From Nitratifractor sp. (GTDB lineage Bacteria; Campylobacterota; Campylobacteria; Campylobacterales; Sulfurovaceae), in NCBI GenBank assembly GCA_015486995.1, contig WFQO01000174.1, forward strand, positions 1 through 37,657: DNA of 37,657 bases, read 5' to 3'. The notes under the pieces were generated by a model. The model worked only from the letters and a program-made list of their open reading frames with translations, ran no database searches and had not been told where the DNA came from. Of the stretch, positions 7,539 to 28,902 are shown in pieces. A program made the translations under genes and the position numbers. Each line of letters begins with the position of its first letter. Position 1 is the stretch's first letter.

Positions 7539-7876
7539 TCCATCTCCAGGGTCATCAGATACATCTCTTCGCCGTCGATGATCTCCGTTTGGATGCTTCC
7601 GCATTTCGGGCAGACAAGCTTCAACTCCTCCAGCATTGTCTCTTGGCCACACTCCCGACAGCGGATCACTACCGGCTGGATGTTCATCACAAACTCCGCA
7701 TCTTTGCAGATCGTACCCTCTTTGAAGGTATCAAAAGCCGTTTGCAGCAAATCGGGCTCCACGCCGCTCAAAACCCCGATTTTGGTGACCACTTTGGTGA
7801 TCTTTTTCGCATTGTGTTTGGCGGCGTGGCTTTCACACTGATCAAGCAGGGCTTGAACTATGGAGTATTCGTGCAT
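7535..7876 (-). CDS. hypA: Hydrogenase maturation nickel metallochaperone HypA
   Basis: MHEYSIVQALLDQCE start (MHE Ni-binding motif), CRECG...CPKCGS zinc site. Confidence 0.95.
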   Translation of the reverse strand: MHEYSIVQALLDQCESHAAKHNAKKITKVVTKIGVLSGVEPDLLQTAFDTFKEGTICKDAEFVMNIQPVVIRCRECGQETMLEELKLVCPKCGSIQTEIIDGEEMYLMTLEME

Positions 7877-9528
7877 TGTTTGAACCTTTCGGGGGTTTTG
7901 GCGGGGCATTGCTTGTAGACAAACTCCCGTCGCAGCGTATGGAAAGGGCTCTTCGGATCCCAAAACTGAGGGTGCATAATCTCGAGCTCTTCGCGTTTGG
8001 CCGCCTCCAACGCCGCTTTGCCGGAGTCTATCCGATCGGCTTTAACGTCCAACCGATCGTAGTAACGATCCTCGTCACTGAGCAGTGCCCGGCAATAGGC
8101 TTTGAGGGCCTCGTCATACTCTTCGGCGGGCAATACGTGATCGATCATCCCGATCGCTTGGGCTTTGGGGGAGCTGATCGGTAGACACTCTTCCAGCAAC
8201 TTTCTCGCCGTCTCTTTGCCCACTCGCCTAGGCAACGTCCAGGTGTGGTATTCGCTGCCGCTGAGTCCCAGGGTTTTGTAGTGGGGATTGAGCACCACCC
8301 CCTCACGAGCGACGATTTTGTCGCAGGCCAGGCCCAAAAAGACACCGCCGGCACCCGCATTTCGCCCGATAGAGGCGACGGTGAGCACCTCCTCGGCGTA
8401 GAGGATCGACGCGATCAAATCGTTCATAGCGTTGATGTTGCTCCAGCCGTCTTCGCCCTGTTTTTTGCTGTCCTCGAGGATGTTGAGGTGAATGCCGTTA
8501 CTGAAAAATTCGCGCCCTCCCATCAGCACCAGCACTTCACAGCGCTCTTTGAGGTACTCGATCGCGTATTTGAGGCGGATGCACTGATCCGCACTCATCG
8601 CTCCGTTGTGAAAGTCAAAGTACAGATAGGCGATGCCGCCCTTCTCTTCGGCCCAGATTTCGTAGAACGTCTCATAACTGCGATCGAAAATCAGGGGGAT
8701 ACGCCGTTCTTTAACACCTTGGATTCGCTCTTTGAGCACATAAGTAGCCGGAAGCTTGAAGCGCCCCGGCTCTTTGAGGTGGCTGATCCAGACCGCGCCG
8801 TCGCCGGTTTTGAGGCAGACGGCACCGTTGCGTTTGGCCAGGACGGTTTTGATCGGTGCCTCGGCAAACTCCACACCCAAGCGCTCCTCGTTGTGGGCGC
8901 CGAAAAGGTGGCACGGCATCCCGGCGATCTCATCCAAAACGCCGGGGAGAGAGTCGCTGAGGTTGATCTTTTTGATAATCGTCCCGGTATCGTCCCTTTT
9001 CCAGTCGATGGAGCGCTCTTTTTGGGTAAAGCGCGGGTGCATCGGAGCATCGAGTTGCGGGATTTGCCGGCCGCTCTTGTGTGCTTCGAGCAAATCAGGC
9101 AGCATCGCCACGGCGGCTTGGGTCACCTCTTGACGATAGAGGGAGGCTTTGGTGGCTTCTTTTCGCACCGAAATAGCCGCTTCGGCCAAAATATCGCCGC
9201 CGTCGAGCTCTTCGGAGGCTTCCAGCCAAACCGCTCCCCACGACTCGGTGTCGCGACTGAGCGCGTGTTCTAAAGAATCGGGCCCCCGATCGCCCCGGGG
9301 ACCGGGGTGGAAGATGTAGGTGGGGCGAAGGGTGTAGACCTTCGGAGGGATGTAGCGGCGCAGATAGGGAGCCAGCACGATCTCGGGGTCGTGTTCAAGC
9401 AGCTCGCTTCGCATTTGCTCAGGACTCACGGCATAAACCACGCAAACCTCGTGCCCCAGATCTATCAGGCGGCAAAAGACGGCTTGGGAGAGGGAGTTGA
9501 AAGCCGAAACCAAGAGAGCGATACGCAT
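7858..9528 (-). CDS. hypX: HypX/HoxX hydrogenase maturation protein (formyltransferase-like + enoyl-CoA hydratase-like domains)
   Basis: Formyltransferase segment 'TYIFHPGPRGDRGPDSLEHAL...DGGDILAEA' followed by crotonase-like region 'GGREFFSNGIHLNILED...AGAGGVFLGLACDKIVAREGVVLNPHYKTLGLSGSEY'; lies in the hyp operon. Confidence 0.9.
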   Translation of the reverse strand: MRIALLVSAFNSLSQAVFCRLIDLGHEVCVVYAVSPEQMRSELLEHDPEIVLAPYLRRYIPPKVYTLRPTYIFHPGPRGDRGPDSLEHALSRDTESWGAVWLEASEELDGGDILAEAAISVRKEATKASLYRQEVTQAAVAMLPDLLEAHKSGRQIPQLDAPMHPRFTQKERSIDWKRDDTGTIIKKINLSDSLPGVLDEIAGMPCHLFGAHNEERLGVEFAEAPIKTVLAKRNGAVCLKTGDGAVWISHLKEPGRFKLPATYVLKERIQGVKERRIPLIFDRSYETFYEIWAEEKGGIAYLYFDFHNGAMSADQCIRLKYAIEYLKERCEVLVLMGGREFFSNGIHLNILEDSKKQGEDGWSNINAMNDLIASILYAEEVLTVASIGRNAGAGGVFLGLACDKIVAREGVVLNPHYKTLGLSGSEYHTWTLPRRVGKETARKLLEECLPISSPKAQAIGMIDHVLPAEEYDEALKAYCRALLSDEDRYYDRLDVKADRIDSGKAALEAAKREELEIMHPQFWDPKSPFHTLRREFVYKQCPAKTPERFKQCTNTP

Positions 9529-9621: not shown

Positions 9622-10623
9622 TCAACAAATCCTCGGCAGCAACTCCCCCGTCGGCAGCTCCAAAAAGCGCCGCGTACCCCACTCGCTCTCTAACACCACA
9701 CGGTCGGGATGACTCGTCGTGACCGTGCCGATCAGCGCGGCGCTCTCGCAACCGGGGAAAGCCTCCAAAATCTCCAAAGCCATCGGCACCTCGGCAGGAT
9801 CCAACGCCGTCACGAAGGTCCCCTCGTTGGCCAAGGCCGTAGGTTCAAAGCCCAACATTTCGCAAATCCCCCGCACCTCTTCGCTGACGGGAATCGCCCC
9901 CTCTTCCACTTCGATGCAGAGCTCGTTGGCCGCGGCCCACTCATTCAGCACCGCCGCCAAACCGCCCCGGGTGGCGTCGCGCAGGGCGTGGGGGCGGATA
10001 CCGCCATCCAGCAGGCTCGCCACCTGAGGCCACAAGGAGGCGCAGTCGCTTTGCAGAGCGCTCTGCATCTCCAACCCCTCTCGGGAGACGAAGATCGTCG
10101 CCCCGTGGCGGCCGATGTCACGACTGATGACGATAGCGTCGCCCTCTTGGATGTTGCGAATACCGATACCCTGCGCCTGCACTTCGCCGATACCCGTGGT
10201 GTTGATAAAAAGCCCGTCCACCGTCCCTTTGGGGACCACCTTGGTATCACCCGAGACAATGATCGCATCGTTCGTGGCCAGCTCCTTCTTCATACTCCGC
10301 ACGATTCGCTCCAGCTTTCTCGTTTCAAATCCCTCTTCGATGATGACCGAAAGGCTGAGGTATCTGGGCGCCGCTCCCATCATCGCCAGATCGTTGCACG
10401 TCCCGCAGATACTGAGCTTGCCGATGTCGCCGCCGGGGAAAAAGAGGGGCGAGACGGTAAAGCTGTCGGTGGTCATCGCGGGATTTTTCAGCGAAGCCAA
10501 CAAGGCGGCATCCTCGCCCCGGTCCAAAATCTCGTTGCCCAGATGCTTCCAGAAAATCTCGTGAATGAGGGCCTGATTCTCCGCACCGCCGTTGCCGTGG
10601 GCCAGAGTAACGGTTTTGGTCAT
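9622..10623 (-). CDS. hypE: Hydrogenase maturation protein HypE
   Basis: AHGNGGAENQALIHEIF, GEDAALL, TTDSFTVSPLFFPGGDIGKLSICGTCNDLAMMGA; C-terminus ends PRIC with the terminal Cys. Confidence 0.95.
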   Translation of the reverse strand: MTKTVTLAHGNGGAENQALIHEIFWKHLGNEILDRGEDAALLASLKNPAMTTDSFTVSPLFFPGGDIGKLSICGTCNDLAMMGAAPRYLSLSVIIEEGFETRKLERIVRSMKKELATNDAIIVSGDTKVVPKGTVDGLFINTTGIGEVQAQGIGIRNIQEGDAIVISRDIGRHGATIFVSREGLEMQSALQSDCASLWPQVASLLDGGIRPHALRDATRGGLAAVLNEWAAANELCIEVEEGAIPVSEEVRGICEMLGFEPTALANEGTFVTALDPAEVPMALEILEAFPGCESAALIGTVTTSHPDRVVLESEWGTRRFLELPTGELLPRIC

Positions 10624-11063
10624 GAAGCTCTTCCTTCGGTTAAATCTTTCGGTGAAAGGATTTTGATCGATTCAAAATTTTTCAGACGCAGGAGTTTTCG
10701 ATCTTGGGTGACCAAAATATCAACGCTGTGCCGGTATGCCGTTTGTAACATCAAAAGATCCTCCAGGTCATCAAAAACCTTTTCGTTGAAAAGAAAAAAG
10801 GCGTAACGGGTATCGTGGGCATCGAAAAAGAGCGGTTCGATCTCTTCCATCATTTTTTGCATCGCATGGACAACCATCTGTTTATCGATCTTTTTGCGCT
10901 CTGTCAGAATATAAAACATCGTCGTTATGGCATCCGAAAAGAGGAAGAATCGGTTGTGTAGATTTTCTTCGGTATCAAGATACCATTGAGCCGTATCCGA
11001 AGCGTTGTCTCTTGTTCGGTCCAGTAAATCAAGACAAATATTGGTGTCAAGTAGAAAATTCAT
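10620..11063 (-). CDS. PIN-domain toxin (VapC-like)
   Basis: MNFLLDTNICLDLLDRT (first PIN Asp), DLEDLLMLQTAYRHSVDILVTQDRKLLRL; preceded by a small overlapping gene. Confidence 0.85.
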   Translation of the reverse strand: MNFLLDTNICLDLLDRTRDNASDTAQWYLDTEENLHNRFFLFSDAITTMFYILTERKKIDKQMVVHAMQKMMEEIEPLFFDAHDTRYAFFLFNEKVFDDLEDLLMLQTAYRHSVDILVTQDRKLLRLKNFESIKILSPKDLTEGRAS

Positions 11064-11335
11064 TCGAAACGGGAACTCTCTTTGTAAAATTCATTTCGCA
11101 TCTCTTTGTAAGACTCATTCCCGATCATGCCATCAAGCATTCCGATGAAGCTGCCGTCTCTTTTATTGGCGCTTTTTTCGATTTCGTCCAGAATTTCGGG
11201 ATTTTTGACGACCGCTTTGAGATAGAGTGTGATGGCCTGAGTGAGGTTTTTGTGCCGTTTTTTCAAAATCTTTTGCGCTTCATCGACTAAGGTCCGATCG
11301 AAAAGAAAATTTTTGCGGACTTGTAGTGCTTTCAT
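11060..11335 (-). CDS. Antitoxin of the PIN-domain module (probable RHH-type)
   Basis: 91 aa; N-terminus MKALQVRKNFLFDRTLVDEAQKILKKRHKNLTQAITLYLKAVV fits a RHH fold; 4-bp overlap with the toxin. Confidence 0.75.
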   Translation of the reverse strand: MKALQVRKNFLFDRTLVDEAQKILKKRHKNLTQAITLYLKAVVKNPEILDEIEKSANKRDGSFIGMLDGMIGNESYKEMRNEFYKESSRFE

Positions 11336-11357
11336 AACGGTTTACCTCTCAATTTTT

Positions 11358-11390
11358 ATACATATTACTGAAATATGTATTGCTTGTCAA
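11358..11390 (-). promoter_or_regulatory. TA promoter with overlapping operator palindrome
   Basis: Minus strand TTGACA (11390-11385), 17 nt, TAATAT (11367-11362); perfect 9-bp inverted repeat ATACATATT-ACTGA-AATATGTAT (11358-11380) overlaps the -10. Confidence 0.65.
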
Positions 11391-12544
11391 TGTAGCAGAT
11401 CCCCATACTTGTAATAGGCCGCGCAAGCCCCCTCGCTACTGACCATACAACTCCCCAGGGGCTTTTGGGGGGTGCAGGCGGTGCCGAAGACCTGGCATTC
11501 GGTGGGCTCGGCCATCCCCCGCAATATGTCGCCGCAGATGCAGAGTTTGTGATCTTCGATCTCTTCGATAGGCAGAATGTCGCGATAGACCACTTCCGCG
11601 TCGATGGAAGCATACTCGTCCCGTAGCTTCAGCGCACTATCTGGGATATTGCCCAAGCCCCGCCATTTGAAAAGGGGGCGTTTTTCAAAGTAGCGTCCGA
11701 TCTGCTTTTGGGCCGCCACGTTTCCGTCCATCGTCACGCTGCGGCGATACTGGATCTCCAGCTCGCAGCGATTTTGCACGCATTGTCGCACCAGCATCAG
11801 CACCCCCTCCATCACATCCACCGGCTCGAAACCGCTGACGACTACCGGACGGCCGTATTTTTCGGGAAACTCTTTGTAGATTTTGGCCCCGGCGATGACA
11901 CTGACGTGGCTGGGGCCGATGAAGGCGTCGATGCGGTTGTTGTAGCTATCCACGTGTTCGTCGCGGCTGTCGATGAGTTCACGCATCACTTCGGGCACGG
12001 TGACGTGGTTGACGTGCACCAGCAGATTTTTCAGCCCCAGCTTCTGGGCCCGGGCGATCATCGCCGCGGTCATCGGGGTAGTGGTCTCGAAACCGATGGC
12101 GAAAAAGATCACCTTTTTATCGGGGTTTTCTTGGGCAATCTTGATCGTATCGAGCGGGCTATAGACAAAGCGCACATCGGCCCCGCGGCTTCTGGCGTCT
12201 TGCAAGCTGCCCTGAGAGCCCGGTACCTTGATCATATCCCCAAGCGTGACCAGGATCACCTCCTCCTGCATCGCCAAAATATAGGCGTGGTCGATCCGCT
12301 CTTTTGGCATGATGCACACGGGGCAGCCTGGGCCGTGGATGAAGCGGATGTTGTGGGGCATCAGCTGTTTGAGACCGTACTTCATGATGGTATGGGTATG
12401 GCCGCCGCAGACTTCCATAATGCGGATTTCCCGATCCAGCTTCGCCGCCTCCTCGTGAATGAGCTTGGAGAGGGCCTTGATCGTCGCCGGATCGCGAAAG
12501 TCGTCATACAAATTTTTAAGTTGCAGCTTCACAGTTGTCCCCAT
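11387..12544 (-). CDS. hypD: Hydrogenase maturation protein HypD
   Basis: EVCGGHTHTIMKYGLKQLMP, GPGCPVCIMP, GFETTTPMTA, C-terminal SSEGACAAYYKYG. True start may be the GTG at 12532. Confidence 0.95.
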   Translation of the reverse strand: MGTTVKLQLKNLYDDFRDPATIKALSKLIHEEAAKLDREIRIMEVCGGHTHTIMKYGLKQLMPHNIRFIHGPGCPVCIMPKERIDHAYILAMQEEVILVTLGDMIKVPGSQGSLQDARSRGADVRFVYSPLDTIKIAQENPDKKVIFFAIGFETTTPMTAAMIARAQKLGLKNLLVHVNHVTVPEVMRELIDSRDEHVDSYNNRIDAFIGPSHVSVIAGAKIYKEFPEKYGRPVVVSGFEPVDVMEGVLMLVRQCVQNRCELEIQYRRSVTMDGNVAAQKQIGRYFEKRPLFKWRGLGNIPDSALKLRDEYASIDAEVVYRDILPIEEIEDHKLCICGDILRGMAEPTECQVFGTACTPQKPLGSCMVSSEGACAAYYKYGDLLH

Positions 12545-12800
12545 CCAGTATTGCCTGCCGCCTCTCCTCTTCGTCCATTAGGGCCAAAATTTCTTTATAG
12601 GTCTCGATGGAAGCCAAGGCATCCTCTTCGCTGATGATGTTCATCGCGAAGCCGATGTGAATGAGTACGTAATCGCCCACTTTGACCTCATCCTCGACAA
12701 AATCGATCCCCACTTCCCGCTGCACCCCCATCGTATCGACGACGGCGGTGGCTTTGGCTTTGTCGATTTTGACCACTTTGCTCGGTATCGAAAGGCACAT
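12516..12800 (-). CDS. hypC: Hydrogenase maturation chaperone HypC
   Basis: MCLSIPSKVVKID start; VGDYVLIHIGFAMNIISEEDA. Confidence 0.95.
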   Translation of the reverse strand: MCLSIPSKVVKIDKAKATAVVDTMGVQREVGIDFVEDEVKVGDYVLIHIGFAMNIISEEDALASIETYKEILALMDEEERRQAILDGDNCEAAT

Positions 12801-12808
12801 AAGATCTC

Positions 12809-13579
12809 CTATCGCATTTTTCGTTTGAATTCGATCCAGTCGATCACTTTTTGGATCGTCTCGGGCTCTTTGATGTTGACTTCCAGGATGTCCACACCGG
12901 GCTTGATCCGCCGGGCTTGGGTCTTTTCGTGTTCGATATCGTAGTCGAAATAGGGCAGCAGATCGGTTTTGGTGATGAGGACCAGATCGGCCTGGCGGAA
13001 CATCACGGGATATTTTTCGATCTTGTCACCCCCTTCGGGTACGCTGACCAGCACGATGTTCAGATGTGTCCCCACATCGTAGCTGGCGGGGCAGACCAGG
13101 TTGCCCACGTTTTCGACGAAGCAGACGTCGATCTCCTCCAGCGGCATTTCGTGCAGTCCCTTGTGGACCATAAAGGCGTCCAGGTGGCAGGCACTCCCCG
13201 TGGTGATCTGATAGGCGGGGATCCCTTTTTCGCGGATGCGGTCGGCATCCCGGTTGGTCTCCAGGTCCCCTTCGATGACGCCGAAGCGAAAGGGCGCCGT
13301 CTCAGCCATCGTCTCCAGCAACGTCGTCTTGCCGCTGCCGGGAGAACTCATCAGATTGATCGCCAACACCCCGTGGCGGTCGAAGTGCTCCCGGTTGTGT
13401 TGCGCTTCGTGGTCGTTTTTTTCCAGGATCTTGCTAATGACCTCGATGGTTTTCCCGTCGTTGAGCTGCGGGTTGTGATGCAGCGTCTCGTGGGCCGCCT
13501 GATGGGTATGACTGTGGTGATCGTGGTCGGGATCGTGATGGTGATGATCGGTGATGCTACAGCCGCAATCTTTACACAT
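12809..13579 (-). CDS. hypB: Hydrogenase maturation GTPase HypB
   Basis: N-terminal CKDCGC and His-rich stretch; P-loop SSPGSGKTTLLE; VGNLVCPASYDVG; ITKTDLLPY. Confidence 0.95.
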   Translation of the reverse strand: MCKDCGCSITDHHHHDPDHDHHSHTHQAAHETLHHNPQLNDGKTIEVISKILEKNDHEAQHNREHFDRHGVLAINLMSSPGSGKTTLLETMAETAPFRFGVIEGDLETNRDADRIREKGIPAYQITTGSACHLDAFMVHKGLHEMPLEEIDVCFVENVGNLVCPASYDVGTHLNIVLVSVPEGGDKIEKYPVMFRQADLVLITKTDLLPYFDYDIEHEKTQARRIKPGVDILEVNIKEPETIQKVIDWIEFKRKMR

Positions 13580-13591
13580 ATTTTCTCCTTC

Positions 13592-14341
13592 TCAAAAATG
13601 TAGATGGTAGTGGGAATGGACAAACTTTTTATGCCGATGCTTATGCTTGTGAATCAGGTTGGCTTGAACGAGTAGGTCGAGATCTTCCATCAGACTCTCC
13701 ATATCCCCGTCATAGACGACGCGATGGCTCTCGTCCAGCACGACAGCCCGTCGACAAGACTCGTAGGCTACGCTCAAGTCGTGCGTCGCAAGGACGATCG
13801 TCGTATCCAACTCCGACAGCAGATCGATCAACCACCCCGTCGTTCTGGGGTCCATTGCCGTCGTGGGTTCATCCAAGAGCAAAAGTTCGGGCTCATAGGC
13901 TAGAATCGAAGCCAGGATCACCTTCTGTTTCTCGCCGCCGCTGAGTTTCAGCGGAGATTTGTCCAAAAGGTTTCGCACTCCAAAGGTTTCGGCGATTCTG
14001 TCAATACGCTCCTCGATATCCTCAAATCCGAATTCCCGCAGAGAAAACGCGATTTCGTCATAGACCGTAGGGTTGAAAATCATCGCGTCAGGGTTTTGAA
14101 ACAAAATACCCACATCAGGGCGCAGTCGCTTGGCGTATTTTTTGTCGACTTTTACCTTGTGAAACAGGTACTCGCCCTTTGTCGGAAAATAGAGTGCCGC
14201 CAGGATACGAAGCAGCGTCGATTTGCCGCTGCCGTTGCTGCCGAGGACGGCCACCCTCTCTCCCTTGTCGATCTGCAAACCGACTCTCTCCAGCGCAAGG
14301 ACATCGTCATAGCGATAGCTGACGTTTCGCACTTCAATCAC
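13592..14341 (-). CDS. ECF-type nickel/cobalt transporter ATPase (CbiO/NikO-like)
   Basis: Walker A GSNGSGKST, signature LSGGEKQKV, Walker B LLLLDEPTTAMD; His-rich C-terminus HKHKHRHKKFVHSHYHLHF. Confidence 0.9.
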   Translation of the reverse strand: MIEVRNVSYRYDDVLALERVGLQIDKGERVAVLGSNGSGKSTLLRILAALYFPTKGEYLFHKVKVDKKYAKRLRPDVGILFQNPDAMIFNPTVYDEIAFSLREFGFEDIEERIDRIAETFGVRNLLDKSPLKLSGGEKQKVILASILAYEPELLLLDEPTTAMDPRTTGWLIDLLSELDTTIVLATHDLSVAYESCRRAVVLDESHRVVYDGDMESLMEDLDLLVQANLIHKHKHRHKKFVHSHYHLHF

Positions 14342-14888
14342 GGAAAAACCCTCTCGCTTTCATCGCCAACGTGCGCTCATTCGCATCATAGAAAGACTTT
14401 TCCAAAAAAAACTCAAACGCTCGCGCGATAAAGGCGGGGTTTTTGTCTTTAAGCCGCCATCCTCTTGAGAGGTAAGCCAACCGAAGCTCCTCAAAGCTTT
14501 TTTTGTAGGAAAAAATTTGTGACAAAGCGATCGTGGTCAGGTAGCTGAGGTCTTTAGAGAAACCGACGATTTGGACAATGGAGTAGTGAGTAAAAAACCA
14601 AAAGACGAAATAGGTCAAAAGATAGACTTTGAGGTTGATGTAAAACAGATACTCCCAGGGGGTCTCGTGTCGCCACAGCGCCATTGCCGCATATCCCAAG
14701 CTGACCCCTAGATTGAAGATCAAAATGGAGCGAATCACGCGAATCGTCAGAGGCACGATTTTTGGAAAGCTCACGATCCAAAGCGCTATCAATGCGGTAA
14801 ACAGGTATGCAAGATGATGCAGACTCAACAGGGTAAAAAAAGCCGCGACGAAAAAGAGTCTGGCCGAGAGAATCTTATTTTTTTGCAA
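14334..14888 (-). CDS. ECF-type nickel/cobalt transporter transmembrane protein (CbiQ/NikQ-like)
   Basis: Multi-TM; 'LRLAYLSRGWRLK...AMKARGF' matches the CbiQ A(x)xxRG coupling motifs; between ATPase and CbiN-like genes. Confidence 0.85.
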   Translation of the reverse strand: MQKNKILSARLFFVAAFFTLLSLHHLAYLFTALIALWIVSFPKIVPLTIRVIRSILIFNLGVSLGYAAMALWRHETPWEYLFYINLKVYLLTYFVFWFFTHYSIVQIVGFSKDLSYLTTIALSQIFSYKKSFEELRLAYLSRGWRLKDKNPAFIARAFEFFLEKSFYDANERTLAMKARGFFRD

Positions 14889-15168
14889 GGATTTTTCCTA
14901 TCATCATCCACAAAAGATAGATCAACACGACTCCGACAACGGCACTAAGGTAGTATCCCGTTACGCTTCCGGTTCCGGGGGCCGTATACTCAGGAAGCAA
15001 GGGATGAAGCGCCGAGTGAAAATGCTTCATACCTTCAGGGATGAAGCCCAGTTTCTCGGCGTAATAGTGCACATCCCACTCCCCCCAGGCCTCCGCATCG
15101 GTCAAAAGCCCCAACGGAACGCACGCAAGCATCACGGCCACGATGGGCCATATCCTCTTGACATTCAT
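14875..15168 (-). CDS. PDGLE/CbiN-like small membrane component of the Ni transporter (NikN-like)
   Basis: 97 aa, N- and C-terminal TM segments, position between CbiM- and CbiQ-like genes. Confidence 0.75.
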   Translation of the reverse strand: MNVKRIWPIVAVMLACVPLGLLTDAEAWGEWDVHYYAEKLGFIPEGMKHFHSALHPLLPEYTAPGTGSVTGYYLSAVVGVVLIYLLWMMIGKILAKK

Positions 15169-15806
15169 ACTTGTCCCTCTCTTTTTTTCAAAAATGTGTA
15201 GACGATTTGCGTAAAGACACCCTCGATGACCCCGAAGATCAACAGATGCGCCGTCATCATCGCGGGGACCGTCACCTCCAAACCGAAGGGAAAGTAGAGG
15301 GGCTTGCCTGCCGCGTCACTAAAGAGCCAGGGCTGTATGCCCAACACCACAGCATCGCACAAAGCGGCGGCATTGATGGAAACCCATCCCGCGATAAAGG
15401 GGGCGAATTTTGTTTTTTCCTTCAAAGCCTGGTAAACGGCGTAGCCGGCAAACGCCGCGATAAAGGCCATATCGAAAGCGTTGACGGCCCAAGTGGAGAT
15501 CCCGCCGTCCCCAAAGACGAGCGCTTGAATGAGCAGGACGAAAGAGACCGCGATAAAGGCGACCCAGGGCCCAAAGAGTATCGCCAAGAGCGCCGTCCCG
15601 ATGGCATGCCCGCTCGTGCCGCCGGGAACAGGAATGTTGAACATCATCACCAAAAAGCTGAGTGCGCTGAGTGATCCGAGCAAGGGAAGGGTTTTCTCAT
15701 CCAAAAACGATTTGAGTTTGCGAAATCCATACGCCCATAACGGGAGCATCACCGCATAACTTGTCGCGACCGTCGCCGGTGAGAGATACCCGTCGGGAAT
15801 ATGCAT
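15165..15806 (-). CDS. CbiM/NikM-like substrate-binding membrane component of the Ni transporter
   Basis: MHIPDGYLSPATV N-terminus (CbiM/NikM Met-His motif); GTSGHAIGTALLAILFGPW. Confidence 0.92.
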   Translation of the reverse strand: MHIPDGYLSPATVATSYAVMLPLWAYGFRKLKSFLDEKTLPLLGSLSALSFLVMMFNIPVPGGTSGHAIGTALLAILFGPWVAFIAVSFVLLIQALVFGDGGISTWAVNAFDMAFIAAFAGYAVYQALKEKTKFAPFIAGWVSINAAALCDAVVLGIQPWLFSDAAGKPLYFPFGLEVTVPAMMTAHLLIFGVIEGVFTQIVYTFLKKREGQV

Positions 15807-15842
15807 ATGCTCTCCTCTGTTCCATCCGATCTATTCTATGTC

Positions 15843-15860
15843 ACTGAATACCTATTCAGT
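15843..15860. promoter_or_regulatory. Candidate TetR-family operator, copy 1 (nikM promoter region)
   Basis: ACTGAATA-CC-TATTCAGT, 8-bp perfect arms, 37 bp upstream of the nikM start. Confidence 0.55.
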
Positions 15861-15896
15861 TTTCTCTGTATTGTAACGCGTTATCATAAAAGCGTT

Positions 15897-16607
15897 ATGA
15901 AACCTGGAGATTCCTATATAGTATCCGGACCTTTTCCTTTGGAGCATTGCCCTTTTTGCGGCAATGACACTCTCTACGGACTTTCAGACGGTCGCGTCAA
16001 ATGCAGTCGGTGCAAACGGCGCTATTCGGTTAAAAAGTTGCAAAGGGAGAGGCATCTTGTCAACCTCTTTTGCCGGGAGTACAACGCATTAGCCGCTTCC
16101 AAAGAGGCGAGGGTCAGTTACGTAACGGCCAAAAACTTTTTCGACCGTGTCCGCCGCCGCCTGCCCGTGCTGCTCGAGGCCGATTACGAACAAAACCGCG
16201 ACCGAATCGCGGAATACGACGAGTACCTCTACCTCGACCGTTCCAAACGTAAGGACAAACGCCGGATCTTCGATGCCCACAATCTTCTCACCTTCGACTA
16301 CGGCGGACGGGTTTACTCAATCCTGATGCCGCCGCTGGATCGCTTCAAACAAGCCTATTTGGATGACGGATTGGAGGAGGTCTATTACCGGGAGTTCTCC
16401 CGTTTTCTCAACATCCACCGCATCGCCCGTCTCAAAAGCCGCCACAACACCATCGTACGGTTCTGGGCCTTTTTGGATGAACAGATGAAGCGCCATCGTG
16501 GCGTGAATCGGGAAAACTTTTTCTACTACCTCAAAGAGGCGGAGTTTTTGTTCAACTATCCGATGCCGGATAGAGAGGCTATATTGAGAAGTATATTGAC
16601 GTATTAA
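15897..16607 (+). CDS. IS1595/ISXO2-like transposase-related protein
   Basis: Zinc ribbon CPFCGNDTLYGLSDGRVKCSRCKRRYS; C-terminal 'RHNTIVRFWAFLDEQMKRHRGVNRENFFYYLKEAEFLFNY' resembles the ISXO2 'ieSFWs..krrl.kf.Gi....F..yLKEcEfRfN' block. Confidence 0.7.
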   Translation: MKPGDSYIVSGPFPLEHCPFCGNDTLYGLSDGRVKCSRCKRRYSVKKLQRERHLVNLFCREYNALAASKEARVSYVTAKNFFDRVRRRLPVLLEADYEQNRDRIAEYDEYLYLDRSKRKDKRRIFDAHNLLTFDYGGRVYSILMPPLDRFKQAYLDDGLEEVYYREFSRFLNIHRIARLKSRHNTIVRFWAFLDEQMKRHRGVNRENFFYYLKEAEFLFNYPMPDREAILRSILTY

Positions 16608-21740: not shown

Positions 21741-22289
21741 TTATCTGACTTTTCGCGGGGCGGTAGGATTGGCATAGAAGTCGATCACCTCATCGAGGCT
21801 TAGCGGTTTCGCTTTCGGCTTGACCGTCACTCCGCTTCGCTTTAGCTCATCCAGAGCGGTATCGACAAAGGCGGGAAAAGCCGTTTTGAGTGTGTCACTC
21901 AACCCCGCTTTGACGCTCAGAATATCTTCGGGGACGATCCCGATGATGTTGACATCGCTGAGATTGCCGTTGAGGGCGGCGATTTCGAGCATCTCCACGA
22001 TCTCCACCTCGTGAGCGGTCTGTTTGTAGCTGCCTAGGCCCAGCAGCTCTTCGCCCGGGATATTGTAAATCGATCCGGGAGAATCGTTTTTCATCGTGAT
22101 CGTATCGAGGATGATCACCTTGTCGTAGTCGGTGTAGTAGGTCATCAGCTGAAAACCCAGCACCCCGCCGTCGACCAGCGTCACATCGCCGTCAAAGTCG
22201 TAATTTTCCGCCAGGTATCGCTGGGCATAGACCCCCACTCCTTCATCGCGGAAGATCACCGTCCCCGCACCGACAACCGCTAGTCGCAA
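21741..22289 (-). CDS. hydD: Hydrogenase maturation protease HydD
   Basis: VVGAGTVIFRDEGVGVYAQRYL, DGGVLGFQLM, LDTITMKNDSPGSIY (metal-binding E, D motifs). TTG start. Confidence 0.92.
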   Translation of the reverse strand: MRLAVVGAGTVIFRDEGVGVYAQRYLAENYDFDGDVTLVDGGVLGFQLMTYYTDYDKVIILDTITMKNDSPGSIYNIPGEELLGLGSYKQTAHEVEIVEMLEIAALNGNLSDVNIIGIVPEDILSVKAGLSDTLKTAFPAFVDTALDELKRSGVTVKPKAKPLSLDEVIDFYANPTAPRKVR

Positions 22290-22314: not shown

Positions 22315-23016
22315 TCATTTCTCTTTCGCGAACTTGCTACCGCCGAAGGCGATGGCGATATCGCCCTCCTGCCAATAGATGGTACGCCAAACCTGATAAT
22401 AGATGTGGAACATCACCCAAACGATGATGAAATACATACTCATATGGTGCCAGTAGCGTACATCCATATTGGTACCGCCGGTGAAGGCGACGGTCCAGTC
22501 GGTCGCCCAATGCAGCAGTGCCGGCCACCAATCCCCGATGCTACTGTGCCCGCTCTCCAATCCCTGAACATAGAGTTGCAATCCGGTAAAGAGCATCCAG
22601 ACCAGCAACAGGTGAAAGATCAGAAAATAGACGGTATTGAAGCTGTCGGCGTGGCTGGAGTCGAACTTCTTGACCCGGTTGAAGGTGATCAGATTGAGAA
22701 AGACCGCGAAAAACTCCACGATATTCTTCGGCGTCGGCAGAAGCTTCAAGATCGGCTTCTCAAAACGGCTGAAGAAGTAGAGATAGGCGATAACGATCGA
22801 GCTCACATCAAAGATGATCGCCGCCATCAGATGCACCCAGCGGTTCCAGGCCATCACGTATTTATCCACCGCCGGTTCGGCGATAAGGGTCTGATAGTAG
22901 GGATGACCGATGTAGAGGCCGGTGATCACCGCCGCCACCATACAGATCGCCACGACCCAGTGATTGATCCGCATAAAGGTCGTCATCCTCTTGACTTTTT
23001 TGTATCCGGCTTTCAT
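22315..23016 (-). CDS. hydC: Ni/Fe-hydrogenase b-type cytochrome subunit HydC
   Basis: MRINHWVVAICMVAAVITGLYIG, multi-TM with heme-ligand His, follows the large-subunit gene. Confidence 0.93.
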   Translation of the reverse strand: MKAGYKKVKRMTTFMRINHWVVAICMVAAVITGLYIGHPYYQTLIAEPAVDKYVMAWNRWVHLMAAIIFDVSSIVIAYLYFFSRFEKPILKLLPTPKNIVEFFAVFLNLITFNRVKKFDSSHADSFNTVYFLIFHLLLVWMLFTGLQLYVQGLESGHSSIGDWWPALLHWATDWTVAFTGGTNMDVRYWHHMSMYFIIVWVMFHIYYQVWRTIYWQEGDIAIAFGGSKFAKEK

Positions 23017-23028
23017 TGGATGCCTCCT

Positions 23029-24774
23029 TTAGACGCTACAGCTCGTGCTGACTTTGAAACTGCCCAGCTCCTTGCCTTTGGTATCGACGATATGCACCGC
23101 ACAGGCGATGCAGGGGTCGAAGCTATGGACGGTGCGCAGAATCTCCAACGGCTGCTCGGGATCGGCCACCTTGGTGCCGATCAATGCCGCCTCGTAGGCG
23201 CCCATACGCCCTTTGCCGTCGCGGGGTGATGCGTTCCAGGTCGAGGGAACGACGGCCTGATAGTTTTCGATCTTGCCATCTTTGACCTTGACCCAATGGC
23301 CCAAGGCACCCCGGGGCGCCTCCTCCAAACCGTAACCCTTGGCATCTTTGCTCACGGCATCAAAATCGAATTCCGTCCAGGTACTGTGGTCCCCGGCGGC
23401 GACATTGGCGGCCAGTTCATCGATCCACTCCATCATCACGTCGGCCATCATCTCCGTCTCGATGGCCCGGGCGGCGGTACGCCCTACGGTAGAAAAGAGT
23501 ACTCCCGCCGGTGCCGATTTGTCCAGACCCAACAGGTGCCCCAGGCGATCCAGGAAGCCCGTCACATATTTGGTAATTCGCTCGTCTTTGGAAGCGACCC
23601 CGACAACCATTCGTGCCAGAGGACCCACTTCGACCCGCGTATCCCCGAAAACAGGTGCTTTGATCCAACTGTATTTCTCCTCGGTTTTCAGATAGGCCAA
23701 GCCGTCGGCTTCCTTTTTCAAGCCCGTATACTCCGGGATTGTCGTCCCGTTGAAGGGGTGCTGAGGCGCGGGAGCCTTGTACCAGCTGTGGGTGACATCC
23801 TCGGTCACCTTCGCCTGATCGAAGGGGATTACCTTGCTCAAATCCCCGTTGACGACTACCCCTGAAGGGAAGAGAAGCGACGCTTTATAGAAGTCGTTGT
23901 CGTCCAGACGGAAGCCGCCGTAGGTCATATAGTTCTTCAGTCCGGCACCGGTACCGTCGAGAGCTTCGTCGGCGTAGACGGTGCCCGCCATCGCGATGTC
24001 GGCCAAATAGGCGTTTTTGATGAAGTTACGGGCTTTGGTCAGGATCGATTTGAACTCGGCGTTGCGGGCGGGGTTGATAATGTCCTGCACACAAGTGACC
24101 CCGCCGACGACGATGCTCTGGGGATGGGGCATCTTGCCCCCGTAGATCGCCATCAGCTTGGACATATCCCGCTGCAGATCCAAGGCCTGTAGATAGTGGG
24201 CGACGCCGATCAGGTTCTGCTCGGGAGTCAGCTTGTAGTGTTTGTTGCCCCAGTAACCGTTGGCGAAAAGTCCCAAACGCCCCTGCTTGACAAACTTCTG
24301 CAGCCGTTCCTGCACCGCGCGCAACTCCCCGACTCCCGTCCCGTAGGGAGTCTCGGTCCATTTGAGCGCCTCTTGAGAGGCTTTGACGGGGTCGGCTTTG
24401 AGGGCCTGAGTGATGTCGATCCAATCCAAGCCGTGGAGATGATAGAAATGCACCGTATGGTCGTGAAGATAGAGGGCCCCTTGCATCAGGTTCCGAACGA
24501 TTCGAGCGTTTTTGGGGATTTTTACCTTGAATGCGTTTTCCACCGCCTCGATGGAGCGCTGATAGTGGGTGCCGGTACAGACGCCGCAAATCCGCATCGC
24601 CAACAATCCGGCATCCCGGGGATCCCGTCCCTTGAGGATCGTCTCGATTCCGCGAAACATCGTGGAGCTGGCATAGGCATCTTTGATGACGTTGTTCCCG
24701 TCGATCACCGCTTCGATACGGAGGTGTCCCTCAATCCGGGTGATGGGGTCTACGATAATATGTTTGCTGCTCAT
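23029..24774 (-). CDS. hydB: [NiFe]-hydrogenase large subunit HydB (membrane-bound uptake, group 1-like)
   Basis: L1 RICGVCTGTH, L2 DPCIACAVH followed by a cleavable C-terminal extension IVDTKGKELGSFKVSTSCSV. Confidence 0.96.
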   Translation of the reverse strand: MSSKHIIVDPITRIEGHLRIEAVIDGNNVIKDAYASSTMFRGIETILKGRDPRDAGLLAMRICGVCTGTHYQRSIEAVENAFKVKIPKNARIVRNLMQGALYLHDHTVHFYHLHGLDWIDITQALKADPVKASQEALKWTETPYGTGVGELRAVQERLQKFVKQGRLGLFANGYWGNKHYKLTPEQNLIGVAHYLQALDLQRDMSKLMAIYGGKMPHPQSIVVGGVTCVQDIINPARNAEFKSILTKARNFIKNAYLADIAMAGTVYADEALDGTGAGLKNYMTYGGFRLDDNDFYKASLLFPSGVVVNGDLSKVIPFDQAKVTEDVTHSWYKAPAPQHPFNGTTIPEYTGLKKEADGLAYLKTEEKYSWIKAPVFGDTRVEVGPLARMVVGVASKDERITKYVTGFLDRLGHLLGLDKSAPAGVLFSTVGRTAARAIETEMMADVMMEWIDELAANVAAGDHSTWTEFDFDAVSKDAKGYGLEEAPRGALGHWVKVKDGKIENYQAVVPSTWNASPRDGKGRMGAYEAALIGTKVADPEQPLEILRTVHSFDPCIACAVHIVDTKGKELGSFKVSTSCSV

Positions 24775-24776
24775 AA

Positions 24777-25997
24777 TTACTCCTCGTCTTTTTTACCTGC
24801 TGTTGCGCTGACCGCGGCGTGGATAGCGATGCCCACACCCGCCGCCGTCAACAATCCCAAACCGAACTGATCCACACTCTTTTCTACGCCGCCGGTGGGT
24901 GCTTTGATGTGGGCGTCGGCCATCGGACGCTCGTAAGCGTACTTGTCCCAAAACTGCGGCTCGGAGCAGCCGATACAGCCGTGGCCGGCACCGATGGGCC
25001 AGTTGGTTCCGCTGTTGTAGCGGACGATGGAGCAGTTGTTGAATGTCATCGGCCCCTTGCAGCCCATCTTGTAGAGGCACCAGTTGTTCTGTGCCCCCTC
25101 ATCTCCCCACTCTTCGACGAATTCCCCGGCATCGAAATGCGCCCGACGCTCGCAGTTGTCGTGGATCCGATAACCGAAGGCGAACTTGGGACGGTTGAGA
25201 TGGTCCAGTTCGGGAATCTGTCCGGTGAGGACGAAATGGATGATCGTTCCGGTGATGTTGGCCGGGTTGGCCGGGCAAGCCGGAATGTTGATGATCGGCT
25301 TGCCCTTGACGATGTCCTGGACCCCCACCGCTCCGGTGGGATTGGGGGCCGCCGCCGGTACCCCGCCGAAAGTGGCACAAGTCCCCACAGCTACCACCGC
25401 AGCGCTGTCACCGGCGACACGAAGCAGATGCTCTTCAAACGTTTCTCCTTTGGCTCCGATGGTACACCACTCCTTCCCTACTCCCACAGGCACAGAGCCT
25501 TCCACGACGCAAAGATATTTGTCCTTGAAGGTCTTCATCGCTTCGTCGAGATGTGCTTCGGCCTGATATCCAGCCGCCGCCATCAGCGTCTCGTTGAACT
25601 CCAGGTCGATGGTCTCCAGAATCAGCTCGTCGATGGTGGGCGAGTCGGAACGTAGAATCGCCTCGGAGTTTCCGGCGCAATCTTGCAGCTCGATCCAGAT
25701 CACCGGGACCCGGTTCATCAGTTCGGCGGCTTCGGCCACCAGAGGAGTGAAAGAAGCCGGCAGCATCAGCATCGCCGTGATCGCACTGGCCCACTTCATA
25801 AAGTCCCGTCGGCTCAGCCCTTCGGCATCCAAAGCCTTTTGGATATCCATTTTCGTCGCCGCCGGCGTCTGCCGCAATTCATTCAAGCGCTTCTCCATCG
25901 TTCGGCGCAGCTTCTCGTAATAGGCCTCCCCCCGATTGGTGTTGACCCGTACCCCCTTGGCGCCAAACATCTTCGCCAATGCGTCACGTCTATCCAT
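24777..25997 (-). CDS. hydA: [NiFe]-hydrogenase small subunit HydA with Tat signal
   Basis: SRRDFMKWASAITAMLMLPASFTPLVAEA Tat motif; VGTCATFGG; IHDNCERRAHF; GCKGPMTFNNC; GCIGCSEPQFWD; C-terminal TM anchor. Confidence 0.96.
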   Translation of the reverse strand: MDRRDALAKMFGAKGVRVNTNRGEAYYEKLRRTMEKRLNELRQTPAATKMDIQKALDAEGLSRRDFMKWASAITAMLMLPASFTPLVAEAAELMNRVPVIWIELQDCAGNSEAILRSDSPTIDELILETIDLEFNETLMAAAGYQAEAHLDEAMKTFKDKYLCVVEGSVPVGVGKEWCTIGAKGETFEEHLLRVAGDSAAVVAVGTCATFGGVPAAAPNPTGAVGVQDIVKGKPIINIPACPANPANITGTIIHFVLTGQIPELDHLNRPKFAFGYRIHDNCERRAHFDAGEFVEEWGDEGAQNNWCLYKMGCKGPMTFNNCSIVRYNSGTNWPIGAGHGCIGCSEPQFWDKYAYERPMADAHIKAPTGGVEKSVDQFGLGLLTAAGVGIAIHAAVSATAGKKDEE

Positions 25998-26009: not shown

Positions 26010-26027
26010 AGTGAATAGTCATTCACT
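26010..26027. promoter_or_regulatory. Candidate TetR-family operator, copy 2 (hydA promoter region)
   Basis: AGTGAAT-AGTC-ATTCACT palindrome 13 bp upstream of the hydA start, abutting a TATGAT -10-like hexamer (26033-26028, minus). Confidence 0.6.
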
Positions 26028-26160
26028 ATCATAAAGGCGCCGAACTTATATGGATATTAAAAATCGATGATTTTCTTTAAAAAATTGTAAAATTCATAAT
26101 TTCTTATATAATTTCCGGACCAACTCCCAAAAAAGCATCTCTATCTCTTCCTTCAGACGC

Positions 26161-27426
26161 TCATTTCGTCGTACAGACGCTGCAGACATCGAAGGATTTA
26201 AAGACCAGCTCCGCCGGATCCTCCCGATGCAGGCCGATCAGTGCCGACTGGGCAATTCCCGGATTTTCTCGGCTCCCGTTGCCCAGATTCCATTGTGTCG
26301 GAGTGACGATCCGATAGCTTGCAATTTTTCCCTCTTTCACTCTCAGCCGATGAATCAGCGATCCTCGGGCCGCTTCGACGATTCCCGTTCCCTCCGCATT
26401 CTCAGGAAAAGGCCCCGGATCGATCCAGGCAGGTTCCGACAGATCGATACGAGCAATCAACGCTTCCGTATAGCGCAGCAGACGCGGGATTTCGCAGACT
26501 CGCGCCAGAATACGGCTAAAAAGGGAGTCGCCGTAACGGCGATGCGCTTCCCGGATCAAGGGAGTTTTCAGCAGCATCGCCCGAGCCAGCGGACCCGTCT
26601 CGTAACTTTTCCCCCGATAGAGGACACGACGCGCCCGGGACCCCTCGATCGCTGATTCCCGAAGATAACGCAGATCCAAATGCTTTTGCAGTCGTGTTCC
26701 GATGGATTTTCCCGCGGCAAACAAATCGTTCTGCCCGAACACGATGAAGCGATCGTGACTCCGTCCCAGCCGCTCCCAGCCCCGATCGAGGATTCGCTGC
26801 ATCGCCTGAGGAAGGTCCCCCGCACGTTTCAGCATCTCTTCGATGCGATCGCAATGCACGAAAAGCTCTAGGTCTACATCGATCACTCCCCGACGAAAAA
26901 GCTTTTGAAGATGCCGATGCCTCTGCCGCACTCCGAGGAGATCTACCGGCGTGATTTCACCGGTGATCCCTCCGGGGATTGCGTAACTGTTGTGGGGGTA
27001 TTGTCCCGCCAGAAGAGCGATCATCTCTCCCAAAATCCGTGAAGGCTCCAGGACTCTTCGCATCGGTGCCTCCAAATCCAACAGAGGCAGAATCGTCAAA
27101 TAAAACCATTTGAAATGGTTTTGCAAAAGTTCGAAGGCCAGGGTCAACTCCCGGACCGTCCGTGCCTTTCGACTGAGCTTCAAATCCGCGTAGCACTCCT
27201 CCAAAGCCCGTACCGTAGCGATCAGATGAGCGTGGCCGCAAATGCCGCAGACTCTCGGAGTGATCGTCAAAGCATCCCAGGGATCCCGTCCCTCCAGAAT
27301 TTTTTCGATCCCCCGCCCCGTCAAAAAAAGAATTTCGGCGAAATCCACCTGCTCCTTTTCGTAGACGTAGCGTACCTGCGCCTCCCCCTCGATCTTTTCG
27401 ATCAACTCCAGCCGAACTTCAGCCAC
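26161..27426 (-). CDS. [NiFe]-hydrogenase large subunit, sensory/group 2-like, without C-terminal extension
   Basis: L1 RVCGICGHAH, L2 DVCSVCTTK at the extreme C-terminus. Confidence 0.88.
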   Translation of the reverse strand: MAEVRLELIEKIEGEAQVRYVYEKEQVDFAEILFLTGRGIEKILEGRDPWDALTITPRVCGICGHAHLIATVRALEECYADLKLSRKARTVRELTLAFELLQNHFKWFYLTILPLLDLEAPMRRVLEPSRILGEMIALLAGQYPHNSYAIPGGITGEITPVDLLGVRQRHRHLQKLFRRGVIDVDLELFVHCDRIEEMLKRAGDLPQAMQRILDRGWERLGRSHDRFIVFGQNDLFAAGKSIGTRLQKHLDLRYLRESAIEGSRARRVLYRGKSYETGPLARAMLLKTPLIREAHRRYGDSLFSRILARVCEIPRLLRYTEALIARIDLSEPAWIDPGPFPENAEGTGIVEAARGSLIHRLRVKEGKIASYRIVTPTQWNLGNGSRENPGIAQSALIGLHREDPAELVFKSFDVCSVCTTK

Positions 27427-28294
27427 GCTTATCCTCCATCATCGGCCGCTCCAAACGCTCGATATGAAAGGCTTTGGCGATACCTGCCAGGCTCAGATAG
27501 GCTCGCCGCGGAACCCCCAGAGGCAACCGGGCGGGGATCCCCATACGTTTGGAAGTATGCCAAAGCCCCTCCCGCGGGAAATCGGGTTCGGTGCATCCCA
27601 TACAGGGCGTCCCTGCCCGGGTTTTGGAGTGGACCCCATTCCAGAGGATTTTGTTGCAGCTGCCGTGGGTGAAGGTCCCTTGACAGCCGTGCTCGTAAAA
27701 CATACACCCCTCCAACGCACCGAAACGGTGTTCGTCGATCTTGTATTCGAAATATTCGTTACGGGTACAGCCGTCGTGCACCGTATGGGCATAAAAATAT
27801 TTGGGACGATGCAACGTATCCAGAGGAAGTGGCTCTTCCGACCGCAACAGAGAAAGGGTCCCCGCCAATACCTCCGGCTGCACCGGACATCCGGGCAGAC
27901 TGAGGGTTTTCTCCCAGAAACCGTCAAAAAACCCGTGCCGCCGCTCTCCGGAGAAATGCAAACCGCTTCGTCCCTCCCCTCCTTGGGCGAAGATCCCTCC
28001 GAAAGTCGCGCAGGTTCCCACCGTCACGATGTATTTGGCCTCTACGGCATAACGCTCAAAAAGCTGTTTGTACGCAAGACGGTTTTTCACCAGGCCCTCT
28101 TCCAGCGTTCCGTCGACGAGAAGTATCTCTACCCCGTCGATCCCCTCCTCCACTTCCGCCAGTGTATGGGTCGAGGGGAGCAACGGATGGTAGAGCCACT
28201 CGAAATCCTCCTGCCACTCTTCGAAGCGCGGATAATTCAACAAAGCGTGAGCGTTTCCGTTGCACGCCAAAGCCGAAAGCCAGAGCAGACGCAT
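27419..28294 (-). CDS. [NiFe]-hydrogenase small subunit, soluble (no signal peptide), group 2-like
   Basis: MRLLWLSALACNGNAHALLNYP; VGTCATFGG; LPGCPVQPE; HDGCTRNEYFEYK; GCQGTFTHGSCNKILWNG; CMGCTEPDFP. Confidence 0.9.
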   Translation of the reverse strand: MRLLWLSALACNGNAHALLNYPRFEEWQEDFEWLYHPLLPSTHTLAEVEEGIDGVEILLVDGTLEEGLVKNRLAYKQLFERYAVEAKYIVTVGTCATFGGIFAQGGEGRSGLHFSGERRHGFFDGFWEKTLSLPGCPVQPEVLAGTLSLLRSEEPLPLDTLHRPKYFYAHTVHDGCTRNEYFEYKIDEHRFGALEGCMFYEHGCQGTFTHGSCNKILWNGVHSKTRAGTPCMGCTEPDFPREGLWHTSKRMGIPARLPLGVPRRAYLSLAGIAKAFHIERLERPMMEDKRG

Positions 28295-28902
28295 CAGGAA
28301 GCCTTCAGTGCGTTGTAAATGTTTTCCGATATATCGTCGACATACTCCTCGAGAGTCTTGGGCAGAATATGCTCTCCGTTGAGAAAGACCATTCCCCCCA
28401 GATACCCCATAAAAAGACCGAAGGCACTGAAAAAGTCCTGGTTTTTCAACTCTCCGCTTGCCACACCGTCATCGAAAAAGATCATAATCTCCGTGACAAA
28501 TTCGTTCACGCAGATCATCCCCTCACACCCTTCGTGAAAAACTTCACGATTGGAGAGATAGACCCGCAGAAAAAAGTCGATCATCTCGGGCTCGTCCCGT
28601 GCCGTCTCGAAGTAGATCGTCACAATCCGACGGATCTTCTCCCGTACGGGAAGTTCCGCTTCGTTGATCTCTCGGATTCTTCCCCCCAGATAGGCCGAGA
28701 TCTCCCGGATGATCTCCTGGGCCAGAAGCTCTTTGGAGGAGAAATAGTTGTAGAGGTTGCCGACACTCATCTTCAGATCCCGGGCCATTTCCGGAATCGT
28801 GGTGGCATAAAAACCCTTTTCGGCAAAGAGTTTCAGTGCAGTCCGTACAATCTCGTTTCGTCTTTTGGCCTTTTTTTCCGCTCTATGCTGTTCTTTAATC
28901 AT
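28294..28902 (-). CDS. TetR/AcrR-family transcriptional regulator
   Basis: N-terminal HTH 'RRNEIVRTALKLFAEKGFYATTIPEMARDLKMSVGNLYNYFSSKELL'; start at MIKEQHRAEKK; contiguous with the hydrogenase small-subunit gene. Confidence 0.92.
   Translation of the reverse strand: MIKEQHRAEKKAKRRNEIVRTALKLFAEKGFYATTIPEMARDLKMSVGNLYNYFSSKELLAQEIIREISAYLGGRIREINEAELPVREKIRRIVTIYFETARDEPEMIDFFLRVYLSNREVFHEGCEGMICVNEFVTEIMIFFDDGVASGELKNQDFFSAFGLFMGYLGGMVFLNGEHILPKTLEEYVDDISENIYNALKAS

Follow-up and report, generated by a model that had tools for sequence, protein, structure and literature searches.

A TetR-family repressor gene paired with a cytoplasmic [NiFe]-hydrogenase in Campylobacterota, and its probable operator: a candidate H2-responsive switch

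Introduction

The closest described counterparts of the locus presented here are the regulatory hydrogenase systems of group 2b, HoxBC-HoxJ-HoxA and HupUV-HupT-HupR. Like HupSL of Campylobacterota, their hydrogenases are cytoplasmic, lack a Tat signal, have a large subunit ending at the L2 motif, and are encoded together with regulators of the uptake hydrogenase; in place of the TetR-family protein that accompanies HupSL, however, they employ a histidine kinase and an NtrC-type activator. By their description in the literature, the group 2d hydrogenases of Campylobacterota and Aquificae (HupSL, HuaSL) are the same genes as those considered here, and their function is reported as unknown or debated (PMC5357620; PMC12286921; PMC6702916). 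An ongoing dispute that dates from 2007-2008, between Nakagawa and Sievert, concerns the role of this cytoplasmic group 2 hydrogenase in Campylobacterota, as sensor or as enzyme (reviewed in PMC4584964). A TetR-like gene upstream of hupSL was reported in S. multivorans and suggested to encode a hupSL repressor (Kruse et al., 2017; PMC5357620); no description of a conserved tetR unit, of an operator at hydA and nickel genes, or of the C-x4-C loop presented below was found in the open-licence papers searched.

Three further systems offer partial parallels. Huc, the group 2a hydrogenase of M. smegmatis (Hyd-2), is the best solved relative of HupSL by sequence and has the CxGN proximal motif in common with it, whereas Huc-type large subunits, unlike HupL, carry a C-terminal tail and are accompanied by a protease gene. 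TetR/AcrR repressors such as Bacillus FadR resemble the present TetR in fold and DNA-binding helices, although the present TetR is paired with a hydrogenase and has no close characterised relative, its best solved matches reaching about 20% identity. NikR likewise regulates hydrogenase and nickel transport (PMC2667541), but belongs to a protein family unrelated to TetR, and tetR-hupSL occurs mostly in genomes without a NikR match.

Results

Organisation of the locus

The stretch analysed (hereafter the window) comprises 37,657 nt of a Nitratifractor sp. contig (WFQO01000174.1, assembly GCA_015486995.1), from an incomplete genome (1.83 Mb, 184 contigs, 88.8% complete). On the minus strand, the gene order is rpoA, rplQ, tRNA-Arg, tetR, hupS, hupL, hydA, hydB, hydC, hydD, with the following features:

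28294-28902, minus strand: tetR, TetR-family repressor (ATG start, 202 aa; TetR_N at 49.7 bits against a cut-off of 24, 3.1e-13; AF2 model)
27419-28294, minus strand: hupS, small subunit of a cytoplasmic [NiFe]-hydrogenase (291 aa; Pfam Oxidored_q6 and NiFe_hyd_SSU_C)
26161-27426, minus strand: hupL, large subunit (GTG start at 27426; Pfam NiFeSe_Hases)
24777-25997, minus strand: hydA, Tat-type small subunit of a periplasmic respiratory hydrogenase (TIGR00391, 449 bits), first gene of a proposed TetR target operon
23029-24774, minus strand: hydB, large subunit with C-terminal tail
22315-23016, minus strand: hydC, b-type cytochrome subunit
21741-22289, minus strand: hydD, HycI/HyaD-type maturation protease, after hydC
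15165-15806, minus strand: nikM/cbiM-type substrate component of a nickel ECF transporter (CbiM, 5.3e-62), first gene of a second proposed target operon
9622-15168, minus strand: downstream of nikM, nikN-like PDGLE protein, ABC ATPase, hypB, hypC, hypD, a PIN-domain gene and hypE

The contiguity of tetR, hupS and hupL noticed in the first-pass annotation was borne out, with overlapping junctions consistent with one operon: the tetR TGA and hupS ATG have one base in common (at 28294), and the 8-nt overlap of hupS with hupL points to coupled translation. Its description of the hydrogenase also stood, in that HupS has no Tat signal (its N-terminus reads MRLLWLSALACNGN) and HupL stops at L2 with no protease tail (C-terminus FDVCSVCTTK), as did the absence of a histidine kinase or NtrC-type regulator near the locus, none being found in those window ORFs that were searched against Pfam. 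The neighbouring HydA, unlike HupS, has a Tat-type RRDFMKW motif and a weak TAT_signal match, and HydB, unlike HupL, possesses the usual C-terminal tail, with the HycI-type protease gene following hydC.

The nickel-transport and hyp maturation genes downstream of nikM appear to form one operon. Within it, between hypD and hypE (10620-11335), lie the VapC-like PIN-domain gene and a 91-aa ORF in a toxin-antitoxin-like arrangement. A gene at 7858-9528 fuses formyl-transferase and enoyl-CoA-hydratase domains, an arrangement typical of HypX, which makes the CO ligand. Divergent from nikM, with the operator region in common, a plus-strand gene at 15801-16607 encodes a weak IS1595-like zinc ribbon; its homologues adjoin the nickel-transporter site in several relatives.

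Linkage of tetR and hupSL across Campylobacteria

A conserved tetR-hupS-hupL linkage, raised as a point to check by the first-pass annotation, was found whether counted from HupL or from TetR (67 of 68 genomes either way): among 298 Campylobacteria genomes, 67 encode both TetR and HupL, one HupL alone, one TetR alone and 229 neither, counts (68 HupL and 68 TetR genomes) that ignore kinship and leave out the truncated TetR of G204. All 66 pairs with coordinates are located on one contig, at most 2.7 kb apart, and tetR immediately precedes hupSL in nearly all examined loci on contigs of sufficient length. The recurrence of this three-gene order throughout the class argues against chance. In the single HupL-only genome (G295), a contig edge lies close upstream of hupL, while in the one genome with TetR alone, G143, the place expected for hupSL is taken by a sulfide:quinone-reductase-like gene. 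Median pairwise identity is 63% for TetR, 51% for HupS and 44% for HupL, and the window TetR has a median identity of 64% to its orthologues; the better conservation of TetR would be expected if the regulator is strongly constrained.

Two further loci were observed. A 49.8-kb plasmid of Sulfurimonas paralvinellae (NZ_CP041407.1) carries tetR-hupSL-hydABC-hypF together, with an adjoining integrase, and the module may therefore move as a unit. The truncated TetR of G204 (about 99 aa) occurs in a genome devoid of hupL and hydA, an apparent case of decay after target loss.

Properties of HupSL

In HupL, the L1 (RVCGICGHAH) and L2 (FDVCSVC) motifs are intact, and the nickel ligands and most Fe-S ligands are conserved across the HupSL sequences, the proximal motif of HupS being CNGN instead of CxGC. 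All complete HupL sequences end at L2, within about three residues of the last Cys and with no tail, an ending common to HoxC, whereas groups 2a, 2c and 1 end otherwise. As in group 2b, the protein is cytoplasmic, and HupS N-termini of complete genes lack a Tat signal. Membership of the HoxBC/HupUV group was nevertheless rejected by both tree and residues: Campylobacterota HupL sequences form one clade of their own, separate from HoxC/HupV, each supported at 100/100; the proximal motif is CNGN rather than CGGC; and the C-terminal extension of HoxB is absent from HupS when the two are aligned. The bulky gas-channel residues of HoxC are I62 and F110. An equivalent of I62 is present in HupL, but is common to groups 2a and 2c, and the F110 position is occupied by T, V or N in most sequences, with F in one (L115). 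No partner PAS-histidine kinase or NtrC-type activator was found near the tetR-hupSL loci examined, and HoxJ matches in the source genome mainly cover its C-terminal kinase part. Judged from these sequence features, HupSL may work like a regulatory hydrogenase although it stands outside the HoxBC/HupUV clade.

A different account, which we regard as improbable though the likeliest of the alternatives, is that HupSL functions as a conventional catalytic enzyme in the cytoplasm, that TetR controls hydABC in response to another signal, and that the operon merely keeps them together. The intact active-site and Fe-S ligands fit such a role, for example in supplying the reverse TCA cycle with reduced ferredoxin, the task suggested for Aquifex hydrogenase III; a catalytic function has been put forward for N. 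profundicola and S. denitrificans, HupL is enriched with ATP-citrate lyase (50 of 68 HupL-positive genomes), and G143 has TetR without HupSL. Nonetheless, 17 HupL-positive genomes, not counting the incomplete source genome, are devoid of ATP-citrate lyase and 25 genomes with the lyase have no HupL, against a tie to TetR of 67:1:1, and HupL is missing from all 19 genomes that lack hydA. Moreover, no complete HupL has a protease tail, the cytoplasmic hydrogenase of S. denitrificans is transcribed yet soluble H2-uptake activity went undetected (PMC4584964), and group 2d genes of A. butzleri fall with H2 (PMC12286921). As the sole explanation of HupL, the tie to the reverse TCA cycle is weakened by the 17 lyase-less genomes. 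The reading of HupSL as the input of TetR appears fairly probable on this comparative evidence, a near-obligate partner that is not a target being best explained as an H2 input; it is placed no higher because of the G143 exception and the mixed expression data considered below.

A probable operator at hydA

A palindrome upstream of hydA was first seen by eye, and its core, TGAAT-N4-ATTCA, was then tested on other loci. The features concerned are:

26010-26027, unstranded: O-hyd, proposed TetR operator, AGTGAAT-GACT-ATTCACT, a perfect inverted repeat (core 26012-26025)
26028-26033, minus strand: -10-like TATGAT abutting O-hyd, read from the sequence

O-hyd is situated between TATGAT and the hydA ribosome-binding site. 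The core has 96 matches in 1.69 Mb, compared with eight after shuffling, and most are found 20-50 bp before hydA. Exact arms precede 66/86 hydA copies in TetR-hupSL loci, and arms with at most one mismatch 83/86, giving a consensus of about aTGAATGAnTATTCATT. In TetR-lacking genomes, by contrast, exact arms occur within about 450 bp of hydA in none of 39 cases and a single-mismatch site in one, at -224 (Fisher test, 7e-18, computed on genomes that are related, with a few loci representing the same genome). Ten of these controls encode a HydA 68-82% identical to that of the window and belong to four families (f1, f6, f7 and f11) that also have TetR-positive members; the contrast repeats within all four. 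A TATAAT-like hexamer is found near the site in 66 of 82 loci, against 43 expected from shuffles. Comparative genomics places the palindrome over the proposed target promoter, as for a TetR repressor, and the palindrome is very probably the TetR operator. Counting against the TetR model, the site is missing from several second hydA copies that lie away from tetR-hupSL (G060, two in G125 on C14 and C18, and the second copy of G163).

The tetR gene itself rarely has a core site: none precedes it in the window or in most loci, and the palindrome search upstream of tetR returned AT-rich, promoter-like patterns only. This bears on the proposal, made for S. multivorans, that TetR is a local autorepressor of hupSL with no control of hydABC. 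Adjacency of tetR and hupSL, the scarce hupL transcription in that species (PMC5357620) and a core site at tetR in three loci (L048, L079 and L076) agree with it, but in the window and most loci the site precedes hydA, including hydA copies far from tetR, and does not precede tetR, which renders autorepression alone highly improbable.

Further sites and the putative regulon

Three core matches were detected in the 1.83 Mb source genome, at hydA, at nikM and at C121:1035, the last with a centre that departs from consensus. The site at nikM is:

15843-15860, unstranded: O-nik, proposed TetR operator, ACTGAAT-ACCT-ATTCAGT, a perfect inverted repeat, with equivalents before nickel transporters in relatives

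Two close relatives (G074 and G058) contain exactly two sites each, at hydA and at a nickel transporter. Three others (G208, G003 and G131) have a site at a NicO-like gene that precedes hypB. Both operators are retained in G143, which has TetR without HupSL; one of them is situated at a HupE gene, again with hypB downstream. The transporters behind the second site are non-homologous (CbiM/NikM, NicO-like and HupE/UreJ), and the placement of different families behind one site argues against simple inheritance of flanking DNA. Copies of hydA remote from tetR-hupSL likewise keep the site in five genomes (G010, G225, G288, G191 and G131), so that the operator would act in trans. Retention of TetR and both operators in G143 indicates that TetR may work without HupSL.

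The TetR protein

Assignment to the TetR family is supported by both Pfam (TetR_N domain) and the AF2 model, which has a TetR fold at a pLDDT of 91. The model is least confident at a loop spanning roughly residues 118-132 (pLDDT 68 and 57 for the two blocks covering residues 111-130), which holds two Cys encoded at:

28510-28527, minus strand: codons of TetR C126 to C131 (C-x4-C), a conserved loop modelled by AF2 at low confidence

Both C126 and C131 are invariant, in 84/84 and 63/63 sequences; TetR paralogues at 40-48% identity, in which the Cys are shifted or absent, were excluded. The loop would be compatible with a role as docking surface or as a site of metal binding, Fe-S ligation or redox chemistry; that it receives the signal is conceivable but somewhat doubtful, and the nearest solved TetR structures (all at about 20% identity) gave no hint of a ligand.

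The excluded paralogues (L131-L136) are found near Ech/Coo-like hydrogenase clusters in L134 and L135, behind a second hydABC cluster in L136, and near unrelated genes otherwise. On a plasmid of Runella slithyformis (L215), a TetR/AcrR gene immediately precedes the genes of a tailed hydrogenase resembling group 2a; this TetR/AcrR protein was not found among the close relatives of the window TetR.

The two Cys also admit the explanation that TetR directly senses metal or redox state (nickel, iron or thiol oxidation) in a NikR-like manner, with HupSL at most a modulator. Targets comprising hydrogenase and nickel uptake/hyp genes, the invariance of C126 and C131, and the lack of a NikR match in 55/68 HupL-positive genomes are in keeping with this, whereas the near-obligate HupSL partner is left unexplained and NikR is also present in the other 13; we consider it unlikely, clearly more so than a catalytic HupSL. 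Coexistence in those 13 genomes led to rejection of TetR as a simple replacement of NikR.

Discussion

The reading favoured here, with a probability of about 0.62 as a whole, is that TetR represses hydABC and the nickel/hyp genes, with HupSL as its H2 or redox input. In this scheme, tetR-hupSL would constitute a compact regulatory operon, in which a TetR dimer would occupy the 18-bp palindrome located between the -10 box and the hydA ribosome-binding site, as well as the second palindrome at the nickel-transport/hyp promoter, repressing both promoters. The tail-less cytoplasmic [NiFe]-hydrogenase made together with TetR would serve as the input: H2 would reduce HupSL, which would signal to TetR, perhaps via the invariant C126-x4-C131 loop, which could be redox-active, bind Fe-S or serve in docking, and TetR would let go, allowing hydABC and nickel uptake to be expressed. 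The parts differ in strength. What the genomes themselves show is the conserved tetR-hupSL unit and the palindromes, which occur together with TetR; H2 as the inducing signal is somewhat favoured. That the hydrogenase signals H2 directly to TetR, by electron transfer or docking on C-x4-C, in a Campylobacterota-wide system free of kinase and phosphorelay that controls both respiratory hydrogenase and nickel supply, is a tentative proposal, with the odds slightly against it. The first-pass annotation had suggested TetR as the output partner linking H2 or redox status to the uptake hydrogenase; control of hydA by TetR is well supported by the presence of operators where TetR is present, whereas the role of HupSL as the driving H2 sensor is what we infer.

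Published evidence for H2-dependent hydrogenase transcription in these bacteria is mixed. In S. multivorans, hydB is near-constitutive, with no significant effect of H2, and hupL transcripts are almost absent (PMC5357620), so that TetR may be almost absent too; should tetR be equally silent, the TetR model predicts constitutive hydB. In A. butzleri hDNRA1, a strain considered here from published expression alone, both hynAB sets rose 2.3- to 6.2-fold with H2 as the group 2d genes decreased, in cultures that differed also in electron donor and extent of nitrate reduction and in which 1191/2260 genes changed (PMC12286921).

What is new is the probable target of TetR, the palindrome at the hydA and nickel-uptake promoters, and this operator offers a direct test of the sensor-versus-enzyme question. 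If the reading is true, bacteria would have a second route from H2 to transcription, present in lineages often encountered at hydrothermal vents and in sulfidic waters, and the locus would be a candidate for a minimal switch that responds to H2. As far as comparison of genomes can tell, the tetR-hupSL pair and its probable target are strongly supported as real features, and the pair probably serves to inform the cell of the presence of hydrogen.
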